Assembly (NCBI RefSeq): GCF_026419855.1
Contig: NZ_JAOAKP010000002.1
Location: forward strand, 1 to 62,179
Source of the DNA: Methanothrix sp.
GTDB taxonomy: Archaea > Halobacteriota > Methanosarcinia > Methanotrichales > Methanotrichaceae
Direction of reading: 5' to 3'
DNA length: 62,179 bases
Part shown: in pieces, positions 51,425 through 58,953 of the stretch
How positions within the stretch are numbered: the first letter of the stretch is position 1
Layout: every line of letters begins with the position of its first letter
Position numbers and translations under genes: made by a program
Notes under the pieces: model-generated
Told to the model about the DNA's origin: nothing
The model's database searches: none
What the model saw: the letters and a program-made list of their open reading frames with translations, nothing else

Positions 51425-52330
51425 TTAACCGTAGTAGAAATCTTTTATATATTTATTAACATCCTGCTCGACGTATCTCTGCATCTCATCTCTGAGAGCC
51501 AGAGCTCTGGAGTGCAGCTCCTTGGCGGCTGTGTTCATCTTCGATATGGCGTCGCGATTCTCCCTGATCTGGCTGTCCAGATCTGCTCTGAATCTCCTCA
51601 GACCCTCGTTGAGCCCCCTCGCACCTTCCTCCCGAATGCGCTCACCGGATCTCTTAAAATCGATGGACATCTTATCCATCGTGGACCTGATCTCAGCTGC
51701 ACCAGATCCCATCCTCGATACAGCATCGCGATTCTCTCTGATCTGGCTGTCCAGATCTGCTCTGAATCTCCTCAGACCCTCGTTGAGCTCCCTCGCACCC
51801 TCCTCCCGAATGCGCTCACCGGATTTTCTCAGCTCCTCTGAGGTTTTTCCGATCGAGAGCTTCATCTGACGCACACCCGTGCGTATCTTTGCTATGCCCC
51901 TCTTGTTCTCTGTTGCCTGCTCCTCTATCGACTTTTTAAGGGCGCTAACACTCTTGGCCATTCTGCTCACACCCTCATCCCGGATGGCGACTCCGGCGCT
52001 TCTCAGCTCCGCCGACTTTCTGCGCATCGCTTCCTGCCTCGCCCGAACACCTCTTCCCTGTACAGCCGAAGGAATCTCTGCAGATACCGCTGGCTTGACT
52101 TCCGCAGCCTTTGCTGGCACCTCCTTTCGCTCCTCAGGTTTCATCTGAACCTCCACTGGCTTGGGCTCAATGATCTGGGGCTGAGCCTTCCTCTTGGCCT
52201 CGATTATGCTCTCGGCCAGCTGGGCCTTTGTGCCCCCGAGGTTCTGGATCCCAAGCTGAACTGCCATCTCCTCCAGCTCTCGCCGGGTGTGTTTGGTCAC
52301 CAGCTCTTCTACAGTCTCGTCCATAGGCAC
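51425..52330 (-). CDS. GvpC-like repeat protein with N-terminal SAP/HeH-type domain
   Basis: 301 residues between gvpA and gvpN, the place of gvpC. Residues about 15-48 (TRRELEEMAVQLGIQNLGGT and a following helix) look like a SAP/HeH helix-extended-loop-helix. A Pro/Lys/Glu linker follows (50-90), then three tandem 58-residue repeats beginning near 109, 167 and 225. Each repeat carries S-G-x-x-I-R-x-E-G; the last two are nearly identical (SGERIREEGAR, RRFRADLDSQIRENRD). A C-terminal helix ends VNKYIKDFYYG. The coiled-coil repeats suggest an outer scaffold for the vesicle. Known GvpC repeats are about 33-40 residues, so this may be an analogue. Confidence 0.75.
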   Translation of the reverse strand: MPMDETVEELVTKHTRRELEEMAVQLGIQNLGGTKAQLAESIIEAKRKAQPQIIEPKPVEVQMKPEERKEVPAKAAEVKPAVSAEIPSAVQGRGVRARQEAMRRKSAELRSAGVAIRDEGVSRMAKSVSALKKSIEEQATENKRGIAKIRTGVRQMKLSIGKTSEELRKSGERIREEGARELNEGLRRFRADLDSQIRENRDAVSRMGSGAAEIRSTMDKMSIDFKRSGERIREEGARGLNEGLRRFRADLDSQIRENRDAISKMNTAAKELHSRALALRDEMQRYVEQDVNKYIKDFYYG

Positions 52331-52983: not shown

Positions 52984-53352
52984 ATGAGGATACTGGTAGT
53001 TGATGATGCTCCCTTCATAGTGAGGGCGCTGAGAGATTCCCTTGAGGCACGTGGTTTTGAGATACATGATGCGCAGAGCGGCGAGGAGGCGCTCTCTGCC
53101 TACAGGAACCTGAGGCCGGATGTGGTGCTGATGGATATTCTCATGCCAGGCATGAACGGGATATCGGTCACGCGTGAGATCATGAATATGGATCCATCTG
53201 CCAACATCATAGTGATAACCGCGATAGGCAAGCCGGGGCTGGAGAAGGAGTGCATGGATGCAGGTGCGAGGGGTTTTCTCCTGAAGCCATTCCAGATCCA
53301 AGATCTCCTGGATATCATTGGTTCACTTCCAAGAAAAGACGACGAGCGTTGA
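52984..53352 (+). CDS. single-domain response regulator (CheY-like receiver)
   Basis: 122 residues. Acidic pair in VVDDAPFI, phospho-acceptor Asp in VVLMDILMPGMNG, Thr in VITAIG and Lys in LLKPFQ are all present, so it should be phosphorylatable. No output domain follows. The gene immediately after is only the C-terminal relic of a histidine kinase, so its present partner must be elsewhere. It is divergent from gvpA, suggesting a link to gas vesicle control (inference). Confidence 0.88.
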   Translation: MRILVVDDAPFIVRALRDSLEARGFEIHDAQSGEEALSAYRNLRPDVVLMDILMPGMNGISVTREIMNMDPSANIIVITAIGKPGLEKECMDAGARGFLLKPFQIQDLLDIIGSLPRKDDER

Positions 53353-53368
53353 AGGGTCTGTGGAGTTC

Positions 53369-53521
53369 TTCGTGATGAGCAATGAGGCGAGTGCGGATAT
53401 GAGCATGGATCTAGGACACCCCATAACAAAGGATATTGCGGAGGCGCATGGTGGACGGATATGGTTCGAGAGCAGGTTCGGAGAGGAGAGCACAATCTGC
53501 TTCACTCTCGCCCATGGTTAG
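53369..53521 (+). pseudogene. C-terminal relic of a histidine kinase
   Basis: Only about 35 residues are recognisable: LGHPITKDIAEAHGGRIWFE followed by SRFGEESTICFTL, the G2 box and end of a HATPase_c domain (normally GLGLxIxxxIxxxHGGxIWxxS). The first glycines have decayed to D-L-G-H. The dimerisation helix and the N, G1 and F boxes are missing. It sits after the response regulator where a cognate kinase would be. I see no frameshifted remainder nearby, so most of the gene was deleted. Confidence 0.7.
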
Positions 53522-54164
53522 AGCACTGAGCATTCTTAACGTTCTCAGAAGAAAGCCAAGGGTGGTGCCGCTCACCGAGCCTGTGGGCATGCGCATATCG
53601 GAGGAGCTTTCCCGCGGCTCAGCATATCTGGTCAGGGAGAAAAAGCCTGAGCTCAGCTTTCGGATCTTCTCGTCGCTGGTAAGAGGACAGTGCGCGAGCT
53701 GCGAGCATCCTGATGCGTTCAACTGTGAGAGCATAGGTTGTGAGGAGTGCACTCTCAAATGCCCATGCAAGAGCTGCAGTCAGAAGAGAGCTCAGGGGCT
53801 CTGCTTCACCAGCCAGCACCCTGAGCATATCAGAAACAGGTATGTGCTTCAGACCACGCCGATCTTCTGGATCAGCAGACGTGGCGAGGGCCAGATGGCC
53901 GTAAGTAACCTTGAGGTAATGGCGGACATTACTGCGAGGTTCCTTGAGAAGAGCCACAATCCTGTGGTTCTCCTCGATGGTCTGGAGCTTCTTGTGATCA
54001 CGAACGGCTTTGTCCAGGTCATCAGGTTTCTGCGCGATATCATGGAGATGGTCTTCATACGCAGAGGGATACTGATCGTGCCTGTGAACCCATCTGCCCT
54101 CTCCGAGAGGGAGATGGCGCTCATAGAAAGGGATATGCAGGAGATACCAGCTGAGTGGGGCTGA
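53514..54164 (+). CDS. DUF835 protein with a cysteine-rich insertion
   Basis: 216 residues. The DUF835 frame is clear: GSAYLVREKKPELSFRIFSSL, then FTSQHPEHIRNRYVL and IFWISR, then NPVVLLDGLELLVITNGFVQ to the end. Where other members run straight on, this one has about 35 residues with eight cysteines (60, 63, 71, 76, 79, 83, 85, 88; CEHP and CEECTLKCPCKSC), plus Cys97 just after. This suggests a Zn or Fe-S centre. DUF835 proteins often accompany archaeal signalling modules. ATG 53514 overlaps the kinase relic by 8 bp. Confidence 0.75.
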   Translation: MVRALSILNVLRRKPRVVPLTEPVGMRISEELSRGSAYLVREKKPELSFRIFSSLVRGQCASCEHPDAFNCESIGCEECTLKCPCKSCSQKRAQGLCFTSQHPEHIRNRYVLQTTPIFWISRRGEGQMAVSNLEVMADITARFLEKSHNPVVLLDGLELLVITNGFVQVIRFLRDIMEMVFIRRGILIVPVNPSALSEREMALIERDMQEIPAEWG

Positions 54165-54177
54165 AAGTCCCCCATGC

Positions 54178-54417
54178 ATGCTGAATGCTGATCCAGCTGC
54201 TGTGTTGGATAAGTCTTTAAAATCCGCAAGCGGAAGACGATTCCAGGAATGCGTGGAGTGTAGATCAGAATCAATAACTAGAGACGTTATCACAAAAGGT
54301 TATCCAACACAGCAGATCCAGCTGAATCTGCGGGTTGGCAGATACACGATGGAGATATGGCTGTACAGGCCCCGAAGCTATGTCTCTGTACGGCTCTCCG
54401 ACGATTCGCAGACATGA
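54178..54417 (+). CDS. doubtful 79-residue ORF read through a family D element
   Basis: The ORF enters the inserted element at 54198 and leaves it at 54314. Its last 30 residues (LNLRVGRYTMEIWLYRPRSY and VSVRLSDDSQT) look like genuine beta-strand protein. Without the element and one target copy the same tail would start at ATG (MLIQLNLRVG and on, 35 residues). It is either a small gene given a new N-terminus by the insertion or the remnant of a larger one. Confidence 0.3.
   Translation: MLNADPAAVLDKSLKSASGRRFQECVECRSESITRDVITKGYPTQQIQLNLRVGRYTMEIWLYRPRSYVSVRLSDDSQT
54198..54314. mobile_element. family D miniature element, 117 bp, with 8-bp target duplication
   Basis: Perfect 15-bp inverted ends TGCTGTGTTGGATAA (54198-54212) and TTATCCAACACAGCA (54300-54314). 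It is flanked by the direct repeat GATCCAGC (54190-54197 and 54315-54322). The intact duplication suggests a fairly recent insertion. It has no transposase. The parent insertion sequence is not in the window. Confidence 0.85.
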
Positions 54418-54773
54418 GCCACGCTGAAATCAGAGAACCCATATCATCAGTGTAATATGAGCACGACCTCCTAAAACCCAGCTTTTTGATATAAATCTGC
54501 TTTGATAGAAGCATGCAGCGACATGCGCAGATCATCAAACATGTGGTTAATAGGGATCCCCGAGCACACCACCCTGGTGCACAACCCCCAACTCTCAGAT
54601 CGCGCAGAAACCTGTTCATTTATGCTCTGGAGTCAATGGCGCAAACAGGAACCAAATGCAATCAAATCTGTCGTTCCGGCATGAAGATCTGATGAACTAA
54701 ATCAAAAATGTTTCAACTCCTGAGAGATCGAGAATATCATAAATACGTAACAATTATACGTATTTAGATTACC
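54418..54773. other. intergenic region upstream of the PadR gene
   Basis: 356 bp without a supported gene. Apart from the PadR palindrome at its end, I see a TTTTTGATATAAATC box (about 54484-54498) that could be a distant promoter, and nothing else clear. Confidence 0.4.
54741..54765. promoter_or_regulatory. palindromic operator before the PadR-like gene
   Basis: AAATACGT (54741-54748) and ACGTATTT (54758-54765) are a perfect 8-bp inverted repeat with a 9-nt spacer, ending 8 nt before the ATG at 54774. PadR-family dimers bind such inverted repeats, so autoregulation is likely. Confidence 0.65.
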
Positions 54774-55163
54774 ATGTCTCTAGCATCTGTGGGAGGGGCT
54801 CTGATCGAAGAAACAAACCTCGGGAAGGATGACCGGGAGGAGATCCTGAGCAGGTTCGTTAAGCCGAACAAGGATATTCTCATACTCTCCATACTCGGAG
54901 AGCGTCCGATGTGCGGCTACGACCTCATCAAGGAGATCTACAGGAGATACAATGTGCTCCTGAGCCAGGGCGCTGTTTACCCCATCCTCTACTCGATGGA
55001 GGCTGAAGGTATTCTGAGAGCAGAGTACAGCAGAGGGAACATGAAGACAAAGTTCTACACCCTGACACCCAAGGGGAAAGAGGTGATGAAAAGGAAGATC
55101 GGAAACATGGTATATGCTCTGGAGTACCTGCTGTCATTTCTGAAGGGATCATGCTCAGGATGA
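54774..55163 (+). CDS. PadR-family transcriptional regulator
   Basis: 129 residues. Winged helix: DILILSILGERPMCGYDLIKEIYRR, then LSQGAVYPILYSMEAEGILRAEYSR (recognition helix with the PadR-typical Y-P-x-L) and the wing KFYTLTPKGKEVM. A C-terminal helix ends in LEYLLSFLKG. About 30 extra residues precede the domain. It overlaps the KaiC-like gene by ATGA, and gvpG and the other rightward gvp genes follow, so it is a candidate regulator of the locus. Operator at 54741-54765. Confidence 0.88.
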   Translation: MSLASVGGALIEETNLGKDDREEILSRFVKPNKDILILSILGERPMCGYDLIKEIYRRYNVLLSQGAVYPILYSMEAEGILRAEYSRGNMKTKFYTLTPKGKEVMKRKIGNMVYALEYLLSFLKGSCSG

Positions 55164-55846
55164 GTATCGAAGGACTTGATCGCGTCCTCGAGGCAGATCC
55201 ACCTGCTGGCTCTGTCCTGCTGGTCACCGGAGGAGAGGGGACGCTGAAGTCCAGCCTGGTGCTGGCGATGATGTCCCGGTACCTGGAGAGCAGCGCGGAG
55301 CATGGCCTCTACGCGAGCCTGGAGCAGACGAGGGACAGTCATCTCAAAAACATGGAGAGCATAGGGATAAGATGGCATGAGAACCTCCACATATTCGACT
55401 ACAGGGACATGCGGGTGGAATGGAAGGACCACAACCTAGACATGTTCAGCATGACGAAGGATGTTCTCGACACATATATCGACAGATATCGTGACCTCAC
55501 TCTATTCGCGATGGACTCGCTGAACGCCCTCTATGCACTCTCGCCAAAGGCAAACCATCGGAGAAACGTTTACGACTTCCTGACCGCACTCAGGGACAGG
55601 GGTCTCACGTCCATTCTCATACTCGAAACAGGGGATGAGGTTGGAAAAGGAGGAGAGAGGTTCCTCTCGGATGGCATCATCGAGCTGGGTGTGATCGAGA
55701 GCTACGATGGCGTTAAGAGGTATCTGCAGATCAGAAAGATGCGTGGTGCGAGACATCAGATGGAGAAGCACCACCTTGTCGTGAAGCCAGGCGGCCTTGA
55801 GGTGCTGGGGCCGATATACGGGCCAGCCACTACATCCTGTGGATAG
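55160..55846 (+). CDS. KaiC/RecA-like ATPase (GvpD-like regulator candidate)
   Basis: 228 residues, a single RecA/KaiC domain. The P-loop reads LLVTGGEGTLKSSLVL: the lysine is kept but the usual Gly before it is Leu. The Walker B-like strand is LTLFAMDSLNALY. The C-terminus has the KaiC-like DGIIELGVIESYDGVKRYLQIRKMRG. In haloarchaea GvpD, also a P-loop protein, represses gas vesicle genes; this gene with PadR may play the GvpD/GvpE part (inference). ATG 55160 overlaps the PadR stop; ATG 55151 is possible. Confidence 0.78.
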   Translation: MSIEGLDRVLEADPPAGSVLLVTGGEGTLKSSLVLAMMSRYLESSAEHGLYASLEQTRDSHLKNMESIGIRWHENLHIFDYRDMRVEWKDHNLDMFSMTKDVLDTYIDRYRDLTLFAMDSLNALYALSPKANHRRNVYDFLTALRDRGLTSILILETGDEVGKGGERFLSDGIIELGVIESYDGVKRYLQIRKMRGARHQMEKHHLVVKPGGLEVLGPIYGPATTSCG

Positions 55847-56202
55847 AGTCTCTCTTTGTGTTCAGCAACTTAGAGGGCAAGTATACTGGTTGCTGAATGC
55901 ACTCATTCATTTGCCAGGAGCACATAGCGGAAACAGTGCCTCTCCAAGCAAGTAACTGGATGGATAAGAGGGGTAGGGTTTCCAGCCCTTCACACACAAA
56001 CCCGGGGAACAGGTCTTTTTCCGGTACTGTATCGACAGGATTGGCATTCAGACTGCTGTATCTATGATCGGCACAATCACTTTCTCTCAGAATCTGAGAA
56101 CTGTACCGACAAATCCCATGAGACATATTACGAAAATATTTCAGACAGATGGCAAGGTATTTTTCCATTCGATTTGAAGATACCATCAGGAGGTCCTGCT
56201 GG
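55847..56202. other. intergenic region before gvpG with a reverse family C repeat
   Basis: 356 bp. A reverse-orientation family C copy occupies about 55860-55975 (CAGCAACTTAGAGG at the left, GGATAAGAGG at the right). TATTACGAAAATATTTC (about 56127-56143) could be the gvpG TATA region. No gene is supported. Confidence 0.45.
55860..55975 (-). mobile_element. family C repeat, reverse orientation
   Basis: Reverse complement reads CTCTTATCC at one end and CAGCAACC, then CTCTAAGTTGCTG at the other, matching the element at 22223-22345. The outer ends have decayed. Confidence 0.5.
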
Positions 56203-56451
56203 TTGTTCGTCATAGATGATCTTCTTCTGAGAAGCGTCGGCATCTCTGTCCCGGGCCTGGATCTGATCTGGACGCTGGAGCAGATCAGGGGATATGCACA
56301 GCGTGAGCTGTACAACCCTGAGAGGATCAGGAATCAGATAAAGGAGACCAGGCTGCTGTACGAGTTCGGAGAGATAAGCCGTGAGGAGTACATGGAGAGG
56401 ACTGAGAATCTTGTAGAACGGCTGAGGATAGCGGAGAAGGTGCAGATGTGA
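56203..56451 (+). CDS. gvpG: gas vesicle protein GvpG
   Basis: 82 residues. After the opening FVIDDLLLRSVGISVPGLDL comes the family core REYxxPERIRxxIxxxxLLYExGEISxEEYxxR, seen here as RELYNPERIRNQIKETRLLY then EFGEISREEYMERTE. TTG 56203 is chosen because AGGAGGT (56188-56194) is an ideal ribosome site 8 nt upstream, and the protein then begins like other GvpGs; the frame itself is open from 56149. GvpG is needed for assembly with GvpF/L. Confidence 0.9.
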   Translation: MFVIDDLLLRSVGISVPGLDLIWTLEQIRGYAQRELYNPERIRNQIKETRLLYEFGEISREEYMERTENLVERLRIAEKVQM

Positions 56452-56522: not shown

Positions 56523-56903
56523 ATGGTACTTCCTGAAAGGGATTCGGACCGCGGGCTGGCCGGCGCGATCGACCGGATACTTGACAAGGGACTGGTCATC
56601 AACGCGGACATCACCGTCTCTGTGGCTGGAGTTGAGCTGCTGGGAATTAAGGTGAGGGCCGCGCTCGCATCATTCGAGACCGCTGCAAAGTACGGCCTGG
56701 AGTTCCCATCCGGGATCAGCTGCGAGACCGGTGCGTGGCGGGATGCGATGCTCGATAAGGAGGATTGCCCGCAGTGCGGCAAGAAGGTGCAGCGAGAGGA
56801 GCTGATGCAGGAGTGCTGCCCGTGGTGTGGCTGGACAAGCGCGTTAGCCAGAGACCGCATGCTGAAGATGCCTTTTGTTTTGAAGGACGATTATGGAACC
56901 TGA
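56523..56903 (+). CDS. GvpA/J-family protein fused to a zinc ribbon
   Basis: 126 residues. Residues 10-57 are a GvpA-family core (GLAGAIDRILDKGLVINADI, TVSVAGVELLGIKVRAALAS), closer to the GvpJ/GvpM minor-protein type. After a short linker a four-cysteine zinc ribbon follows: CPQCG (82-86) and CPWCG (99-103, with an extra Cys98). A basic tail ends it. A ribbon on a gas vesicle wall-type protein is unusual. GGAGGAG precedes the ATG. It overlaps the next gene by 11 bp. Confidence 0.85.
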   Translation: MVLPERDSDRGLAGAIDRILDKGLVINADITVSVAGVELLGIKVRAALASFETAAKYGLEFPSGISCETGAWRDAMLDKEDCPQCGKKVQREELMQECCPWCGWTSALARDRMLKMPFVLKDDYGT

Positions 56904-57600
56904 GAGACACACAAACGCAGGCCTGGTCGATCTGCTGGACAGGATATTGACCAAAGGGGTCGTGCTGAACGCTGATATCATAATCTCAGTTGCAGGTGTG
57001 CCTCTGCTCGGCCTCAACCTCAGGGCTGCGCTTGCTGGAATGGACACAATGATCAGGTATGGAATATGGAATGAGTGGGATGCGGCTCAGAGGGCATGGG
57101 CGGCTGAGCAGCACAGGTTAAAGGCGCTTAGCATGAAGTTCCTTCTCAAGGGCGAGGAGATACGTCTCAGAACCTTTGGCACGTACTGGTATTCTCATGG
57201 AATCTACCAGACCTGGAGGCCTGGAGATGTGTGCGTGACGAACAGGCGCATAATTGTTTGCAGAAAGGAGCCCCCTGAGCTCCTGTTCGCAGCATGCTAC
57301 GAGGATATACAGAATCTTGCCTTGAAGAAAGGCGGGGTCATTGCGAATGGAGAGACTGACATACTGCATATCTGCCTGAAGGACGGTACGGTGGCAAAGA
57401 TACATTCTGCAGAGATCCATGCTCTGAGAGATGCTGCAGAGCGTGCGATGTGCACCGTCCGATCGCTCCAGGATGCCGATGAACTCGATGCAGAGCATCG
57501 CACACCTCCAAAAATCCTCTCAACCACGAGCGCGACGTTCAGCGCGAAGAGCCAGATGGAATACGAAATGCTGGAGGAGTGGAGGGAGCGTGAGAGATGA
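56893..57600 (+). CDS. GvpA/J-family protein fused to a PH/GRAM-like domain
   Basis: 235 residues. Residues 8-55 are a second GvpA-family core (GLVDLLDRILTKGVVLNADI, ISVAGVPLLGLNLRAALAGM). Residues about 84-188 look like a bacterial/archaeal PH or GRAM domain: LKGEEIRLRTFGTYWYSHGI, the signature VCVTNRRIIVCRK, YEDIQNLALKKGG, then a closing helix (EIHALRDAAERAM). The tail is disordered and acidic. The domain could bind another wall protein or membrane lipid (inference). It overlaps both neighbours. Confidence 0.82.
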   Translation: MEPERHTNAGLVDLLDRILTKGVVLNADIIISVAGVPLLGLNLRAALAGMDTMIRYGIWNEWDAAQRAWAAEQHRLKALSMKFLLKGEEIRLRTFGTYWYSHGIYQTWRPGDVCVTNRRIIVCRKEPPELLFAACYEDIQNLALKKGGVIANGETDILHICLKDGTVAKIHSAEIHALRDAAERAMCTVRSLQDADELDAEHRTPPKILSTTSATFSAKSQMEYEMLEEWRERER

Positions 57601-57914
57601 CAATCAATATTGATGAGAGCAACCTGAAGCATGGCATTCTTGGATTGGTCATAGCACTTGTCGAGGTGATACGGGATGCCCTCCGGATACAGGCATTGAG
57701 GCGCATGGAGTCAGGGGTTCTGACAGAGGAGGAGGTAAACAGGCTCGGCGAGGCGCTGATGGAGCTCGATATCGCAATAGACGAGATCAAAAGAGAGCAT
57801 GGGGTAACAGAATCCGTAAAGGCGGTCCGCGACGGTCTGGATGAGATCGTAGACAATCTTCTAGATCGGATGCTGAACCCTGAGAGGTGGGAGGAGGCGC
57901 ATGAAGGAAAGTGA
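57597..57914 (+). CDS. gvpK: gas vesicle protein GvpK
   Basis: 105 residues. Family hallmark LKHGILGLVIALVEVIRDAL, then RIQALRRMESGVLTEEEVNR, LGEALMELDIAIDEIK. GvpK is required for vesicle formation; its exact role is unclear. ATGA overlap with the PH-fusion gene and 14-bp overlap with gvpL. Confidence 0.95.
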   Translation: MTINIDESNLKHGILGLVIALVEVIRDALRIQALRRMESGVLTEEEVNRLGEALMELDIAIDEIKREHGVTESVKAVRDGLDEIVDNLLDRMLNPERWEEAHEGK

Positions 57915-58953
57915 CCTGAGGGATGCGATTGCGGAGATGGTCAGGGCTGAGATCAAAGCGATCGGCGACGAGCTGACTCCTGTGATATCAGAGGTGGTGC
58001 GGGCTGAGCTCATACCAGCACTCAGGGCTGTGATAAGAGAGGCGATACTCAGAGAGCTGAACACCTCTGCATCATATGGTGAAGCTGAGAGTGATGATAT
58101 ACACGAGGGCAGCTCGGGAGGGGCTTTACACGAACCTGATGGGATCAAAAAAGAGACATCAGCAAAAGATGCAGCTGTGGTGTCTGCGCACTCGAATGAG
58201 ATGGGACTCTACCTTTACTGTCTTGCTGATGCAAGCGTGTCCGCGAACCTGGGGTCCATAGGAATCGATGGATGCGAGGTGTACACGATCCCGCACGAGG
58301 GGATATCAGCGGTAGTTCACAGCTGCCCGCTGGAGCCGTACAGGAGTGATGATGAGGAGACTGTGAAGAGCTGGGTAAAATCGCACCAGCAGGTGGTTGA
58401 TCTGGCAGCCGAGAGGTTCGGGACTGTGATGCCGTTCGGCTTCGATACGATAATAGCGCCCAAGGAATCCCGCAATGCAGAGGAAGTCCTAAAGAAATGG
58501 ATTTCTGATGATCTCGATGAGATAAGGAGAAAGATGGAGAGGATAAGGGGCCGGAAGGAGTACGGAGTTCAAATATTCTATGATCCTGCAGTTTTCAGCA
58601 AGAGGATCGAAAATGAGAGTGAGGATGTGCGGAGAATCAAGGAGGAGATGTCATCAAAGCCTCCGGGTGTTGCGTACATGTACAGGCAGAAGCTCGAGAC
58701 CGCTGTGAGGAGAAAGATGGATGAGCTCATGGGCGCGTATTTCAAAGATTTTTATGAAAGGATTCGGAGTAAAGCGGATGACATAAAGGTGGAGAAGGTC
58801 AGGAAATCCGACGGCGACATGGTGATGATGATGAACCTCTCTGTGCTTGCCAGCGAGGAGAGGGCTCTCGGCCAGGTTCTGGACAGCATAGCTGCAGAGC
58901 CCGGGATCTCAGTCTGCTTCACGGGACCATGGCAGCCATATTCATTTGTATGA
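57901..58953 (+). CDS. gvpL: GvpF/L-family protein GvpL with an N-terminal helical extension
   Basis: 350 residues. The first 55 residues are an amphipathic helical repeat-like segment (DLRDAIAEMVRAEIKAIGDE, ISEVVRAELIPALRAVIREA) and are followed by a low-complexity linker. The GvpF/L domain runs from about residue 100 (MGLYLYCLADASVSANLGSI) to the terminal signature CFTGPWQPYSFV. It is much longer than GvpF at 49015. The extension may bind GvpK or wall protein. It is the last gene of the rightward gvp operon. Confidence 0.9.
   Translation: MKESDLRDAIAEMVRAEIKAIGDELTPVISEVVRAELIPALRAVIREAILRELNTSASYGEAESDDIHEGSSGGALHEPDGIKKETSAKDAAVVSAHSNEMGLYLYCLADASVSANLGSIGIDGCEVYTIPHEGISAVVHSCPLEPYRSDDEETVKSWVKSHQQVVDLAAERFGTVMPFGFDTIIAPKESRNAEEVLKKWISDDLDEIRRKMERIRGRKEYGVQIFYDPAVFSKRIENESEDVRRIKEEMSSKPPGVAYMYRQKLETAVRRKMDELMGAYFKDFYERIRSKADDIKVEKVRKSDGDMVMMMNLSVLASEERALGQVLDSIAAEPGISVCFTGPWQPYSFV

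Follow-up and report, generated by a model that had tools for sequence, protein, structure and literature searches.

The gas vesicle (gvp) cluster of Methanothrix sp. raises the question of what kind of domain follows the shell-type domain in the product of a single gene, and what it might do in vesicle assembly. In the window, that is, the whole stretch of 62,179 nt analysed from contig NZ_JAOAKP010000002.1, this gene occupies positions 56893-57600 of the plus strand as a single intact ORF with an ATG start, encoding a protein of 235 amino acid residues that is named here gvpM(PH). It lies in a presumed accessory operon on the same strand with the order gvpG-gvpJ(zinc ribbon)-gvpM(PH)-gvpK-gvpL, in which the reading frames from gvpJ to gvpL overlap. 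The operon is opened by gvpG (56149..56451; PF05120, 56.7 bits), followed by a gvpJ-type gene (56523..56903; halo_gas_GvpJ 91.4 bits vs GvpM 52.6 bits) with a C-terminal zinc ribbon, CPQCGKKVQREELMQECCPWCGW, whose motif is also present in relatives. Downstream of the fusion gene are gvpK (57597..57914; PF05121, 66.8 bits) and gvpL (57901..58953; PF06386, 203.8 bits over residues 102-350; NCBIfam gas_vesic_GvpL, 187.8 bits). The original prediction of an immediate coupling to the zinc-ribbon gene and to gvpK was borne out by the overlaps: the fusion gene starts, with its ATG at 56893, before the zinc-ribbon ORF (56523-56903) has ended, and the TGA of the fusion gene overlaps the gvpK ATG as ATGA (57597-57600). 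The start of gvpL (57901) in turn overlaps the end of gvpK. This position next to gvpK and gvpL within a gvp cluster is the one expected of gvpM.

Several other features of the cluster were recorded. The divergent operon on the minus strand carries gvpA, a helical repeat protein, gvpN, gvpO and gvpF. The repeat protein (51425-52330, minus strand), encoded directly after gvpA, has a weak SAP/Rho_N-like N-terminus and repeated helical units (GERIREEGARELNEGLRRFRADLDSQIRENRDA); homologues occupy the same position in most of the fetched Methanotrichaceae gvp clusters, and it is a possible GvpC analogue. Between the two operons (52984-55846) are genes for a response regulator and for DUF835-like, PadR-type and KaiC/GvpD-like proteins, with a short HATPase-like fragment near 53318-53521 that resembles a broken kinase gene. 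GvpL has an N-terminal helical extension of ∼100 residues (57901-58205, plus strand), which is kept in other Methanothrix (frames of 351-359 residues), while GvpL of the Methanosarcina-type clusters (260-280 residues) is without it.

The N-terminal domain (residues 1-78; 56893..57126, plus strand) has a helix-strand-strand-helix order, and its residues 11-48 match the Pfam family Gas_vesicle (PF00741) with 58.1 bits (gathering score 25). An assignment to the GvpA family, as originally predicted, was therefore correct as far as it went, but the more specific GvpM type had been missed, GvpJ being the neighbour with the zinc ribbon. Among the NCBIfam models, halo_gas_GvpM scored highest (104 bits, residues 1-67), well above GvpJ (52.8 bits) and GvpA (36.8 and 35.2 bits), which ruled out a GvpJ or GvpA identity, and in the tree GvpJ formed a group apart from GvpM with a support of 100. 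Given that the score against the haloarchaeal GvpM exception model NF046091 (104.0 bits) is below its curated cut-off of 109, the protein is of GvpM type but falls outside the haloarchaeal model. One PH-bearing homologue on a Streptomyces plasmid (NZ_CP027299.1, 198791-199333) is called GvpJ by RefSeq, although its relatives have a first domain of GvpM type, so GvpJ and GvpM names in databases are unreliable.

The second domain (residues about 88-200; 57154..57492, plus strand) was predicted to adopt the PH/GRAM fold. An AlphaFold2 model computed with 40 homologues had a mean pLDDT of 76.8 over the whole protein; the block means were 81-97 for residues 81-200, and confidence was low at residues 1-45, which is not surprising for a domain of shell type modelled without the surrounding shell. 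The model contains seven strands (residues 90-102, 105-116, 119-124, 129-135, 139-148, 154-162 and 167-172) and a closing C-terminal helix (175-200), nearly all of them above pLDDT 85; this is the arrangement common to the PH/GRAM superfamily (Vps36 GLUE/PH, MTMR2 PH-GRAM, TAPP1 PH, BBS5 tandem PH-like and bPH_3). When it was compared with the PDB by Foldseek, all 42 matches at E ≤ 0.001 were PH-superfamily entries or multidomain proteins containing one, including GRK2, the Vps36 PH domain, MTMR2 PH-GRAM, EAP45 GLUE, ArhGAP9 and BTK. The isolated domains 2cay and 1eaz matched with E-values of 2e-4 to about 1e-3 and TM-scores by target of 0.62 and 0.73, the isolated PH domain of TAPP1 having an E-value of 1.2e-3 and a TM-score by target of 0.73. 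What distinguishes the domain from the known superfamily is its fusion to a gas-vesicle shell-type domain and a sequence that stays under the Pfam gathering score: bPH_3 (PF14470) reached 14.9 bits with the whole protein and 16 bits with the C-terminal part against a gathering score of 23. Weak profile matches among 40 relatives were to bPH_3 (10/40), Vps36 PH (two) and GRAM, PH and BBL5 (one each), and a sequence search of the PDB returned gas-vesicle shell matches only, plus a sub-threshold PH match (TAPP1, E 0.84). Signals below the curated thresholds explain why annotation misses the domain. The fusion of a GvpA-type protein to a PH/GRAM domain, deduced in the original prediction for residues 84-190, is thus backed by the predicted fold and by Foldseek, together with both of its named hallmarks: the TNRRIIVC signature maps to residues 116-123, with T116 invariant and R119 conserved in at least 90% of the 40 relatives, and the closing helix was predicted at residues 175-200.

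The extent of this domain and the integrity of the gene were then read from the relatives. Against four congeners, dN/dS was 0.10-0.20 for the GvpM domain, 0.23-0.32 for the PH domain and 0.5-1.6 for the remaining tail (residues 201-235; 57493..57597, plus strand), which has one predicted helix (218-234) and varies in length among congeners. The PH value indicates a protein domain maintained under purifying selection, whereas residues 201-235 are unconstrained; the domain accordingly ends near residue 200, and not at the stop codon. About 40 distinct relatives within the same class have the entire fusion in one uninterrupted ORF. The suspicion that the gene might be split in relatives was dispelled, since the ORF is unbroken in every full-length one, and a sequencing frameshift or a chance fusion was ruled out on the same ground. 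Together with its presence in 79 of 79 wider loci, this conservation makes the fusion more than chance.

The fusion is not confined to close relatives. It was present in 16 of 61 relatives, and when the whole-fusion query was run across the class, 42 of 238 genomes matched, nearly all with a full-length fusion; the exceptions were partial or shell-protein-only matches (e.g., G108 and G133), and the resulting alignment holds about forty distinct full-length fusion proteins. A scan of 84,980 species genomes gave 185 relatives, and among the best 79 loci, which were analysed, the GvpM-PH fusion was found in every one. These loci span more than 15 nominal phyla, some of them represented by metagenome bins that are possibly misassigned, and include isolates of Desulfosporosinus, Clostridium sp. 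ZS2-4, Anaerobacterium, Lachnotalea, Desulfoluna, Streptomyces and Actinomadura. In the Streptomycetales, such a cluster was found in 5 of 148 genomes, with GvpM extending through the PH domain in all five; in the class of Desulfosporosinus, each of the three positive genomes has a frame of 369 residues. An oddity limited to methanogens is ruled out by loci across many bacterial and archaeal phyla. The original proposal to look for the fusion in other gas-vacuolate methanogens was framed too narrowly, for many bacteria as well as archaea have it, often in a longer form. Among 80 ORFs from the scan, the architectures were GvpM-PH-PH-zinc ribbon (37), GvpM-PH (31), GvpM-PH-zinc ribbon (6), GvpM-PH-PH (5) and one truncated ORF; the window protein has a single PH domain and a variable tail, not the long form. 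The second repeat of the long form was also predicted as a PH domain, and the tandem form had BBS5 (E 3e-9), Rtt106 and Spt16 among its best PDB matches. The zinc ribbon motif CPxCG...ELLxxGCxxCGW is common to long-form GvpM and GvpJ. Zinc-ribbon GvpJ (CPxCG...CPWCGW) is itself widespread in bacteria and archaea, occurring in the window (56523-56903) and in four further loci (L091, L105, L159 and L162). Two GvpM-type genes are present on an Anaerolineales contig (L113, 1279-1912), and in one of them the match to the model stops at position 146.

The haloarchaea are different. GvpM of Halobacterium salinarum (84 residues) belongs to the same GvpA-family subgroup and has the same place by gvpK/gvpL, but haloarchaeal GvpM is without the PH domain and its partner GvpJ, in the haloarchaeal clusters read, without the zinc ribbon, whereas Methanothrix has both. 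Among 393 Halobacteriota genomes, the GvpM model matched 54 and the PH profile 19, and none of these 19 was haloarchaeal by GvpM scores. Long haloarchaeal frames (up to 437 residues) were rejected as hidden fusions, their GvpM part ending in a short acidic or low-complexity tail as in haloarchaeal GvpM frames generally. PH-less GvpM was also observed in second gvp clusters elsewhere: that of genome G008 ends before the PH domain (L066, 7505-7744), and those of the ANME-1-like genomes G329, G356, G386 and G398 (L184-L187) have about 77-102 residues. G008, G386 and G398 also carry a PH-bearing gvp cluster, and the PH-less second copies could represent separate vesicle types or decay. A quick tree nested haloarchaeal GvpM among the others, which suggested a loss of the PH domain in haloarchaea; this was not upheld, because the AU test did not reject a tree with haloarchaeal GvpM outside all others, which even had the higher likelihood (p-AU 0.81). 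The trees are thus compatible with either a loss of the PH domain in haloarchaea or its gain elsewhere.

What the PH domain does can be approached from the known partners of GvpM. In H. salinarum, GvpM is essential for vesicle formation and binds GvpL; its first 25 residues make contact with GvpL and its last 25 with GvpF, H and L, and GvpJ touches GvpG, H and L through its C-terminal half (PMC8716928). With the Bacillus pNL29 cluster, GvpS, GvpK and GvpJ are each required for the contact between GvpA2 and GvpL and were proposed as a seeding group, and purified bicones treated with 6 M urea still retain GvpJ and GvpS (PMC11445434). GvpS of Bacillus (Priestia) megaterium, a member of this proposed GvpS-K-J group, is described as related to GvpM (PMC9501494). 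Annotated archaeal orthologues are Methanosarcina barkeri GvpM (Table 1 of PMC9501494) and Mthe_0071, the gvpM of Methanothrix thermoacetophila (Table 2 of PMC10470525); transcripts of Mthe_0071 have been recorded, and their level changes in step with those of gvpG, J, K and L (PMC10470525). The fetched Methanosarcina-type and Methanothrix loci have the same GvpM-PH fusion as the window.

On these grounds we propose, with moderate confidence, that GvpM is placed in the nascent vesicle or at the vesicle tip and that its PH domain acts as a putative docking site for an accessory Gvp, around which a seeding complex gathers. The GvpA-like part would insert into the first shell assembly or the cone tip, and the PH module would face the cytosol and dock a further accessory Gvp, with GvpL, GvpK or the GvpJ zinc ribbon as the likeliest partner. 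A seeding complex of GvpJ, K and L might be gathered in this manner, on which GvpA would then polymerise. The module would stand in for the contact tail of haloarchaea, where short C-terminal tails of GvpM and GvpJ would make the contacts instead. The genes J, M, K and L, which correspond to those of the haloarchaeal and Bacillus systems, form a single translationally coupled block in the window. The nearest recognised gvp gene before GvpM was GvpL in 59 of the 79 loci and GvpJ in 14, and the loci that contain L/F, K and J numbered 72, 67 and 61, respectively. The protein-binding double-PH proteins Rtt106 and Spt16, together with BBS5, among the matches of the tandem form were also counted for docking. 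Counted against it were the lipid binders found beside protein binders in the fold search and the PH-less GvpM in second clusters of ANME-1-like genomes; since haloarchaeal GvpM works without the PH module, a general requirement for it in gas vesicles is ruled out.

Those lipid binders (MTMR2, TAPP1, ArhGAP9 and BTK) are what speaks for a different role, in which the PH domain would hold nascent vesicles, or the nucleation complex, at the cytoplasmic membrane by binding headgroups of its lipids. We consider this unlikely. The net charge of the domain, which could still hide a local charged patch, is near zero and variable (mean -1.4, range -8 to +3, in 36 archaeal sequences; mean -0.1, range -7 to +7, in 80 scan sequences), and the module is shared by bacteria and archaea in spite of their different lipids; both observations make conserved lipid binding less likely. 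No transmembrane or amphipathic membrane segment stands alongside the PH domain. Of the originally suggested tether to a partner protein or a membrane, the partner-protein half is thus favoured and the membrane half weakened. Self-assembly is a still more doubtful role: the PH domain, with the second PH domain and zinc ribbon of the longer forms, would be a self-assembly or spacing module through which GvpM oligomerises, the resulting ring serving as a template for the cone tip, with no docking of another Gvp. Bacterial PH-like domains of PF08000 form C5 rings (PMC2817789), and a location at the tips is assumed for GvpM and GvpS (PMC11445434), but PF08000 was not among the Pfam families matched by the window protein and 40 relatives. 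It is highly improbable that the PH domain is a regulatory or stability domain (small-molecule sensing, protease or chaperone recruitment) that keeps down the amount of a minor protein prone to aggregate. Although the balance of minor Gvps matters, with overexpression of GvpG, H or M reducing vesicles (PMC9501494), gene position and co-occurrence with K, L and J point to assembly partners.

While gvpM as a gene had been named before, the databases and literature searched do not name its PH module, and the spread of that module and the long form are new relative to the same literature. Searches of the open-access literature found no paper on a PH or GRAM domain in Gvps, nor on the spread of the module and the PH-PH-zinc ribbon form, and the passages of PMC9501494 and PMC10470525 that deal with GvpM orthologues make no mention of a PH domain. 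More tentatively than for docking itself, the common form of GvpM in bacteria and archaea may be viewed as an assembly adaptor, with a shell-type anchor, one or two PH domains and often a zinc ribbon, which with the zinc-ribbon GvpJ would form an outward platform recruiting GvpK and GvpL and nucleating the vesicle; haloarchaeal GvpM and GvpJ would then be stripped-down or alternative versions. Seeding has been described as the least understood step of gas-vesicle assembly (PMC11445434). When minimal clusters are moved from one lineage to another, a docking partner may be missing or fail to match, and the PH module is a possible fusion point for engineered vesicles. As a putative folded docking module on a shell-type protein, present in many phyla and absent in the haloarchaeal model, it would offer a soluble, expressible handle on the seeding complex.
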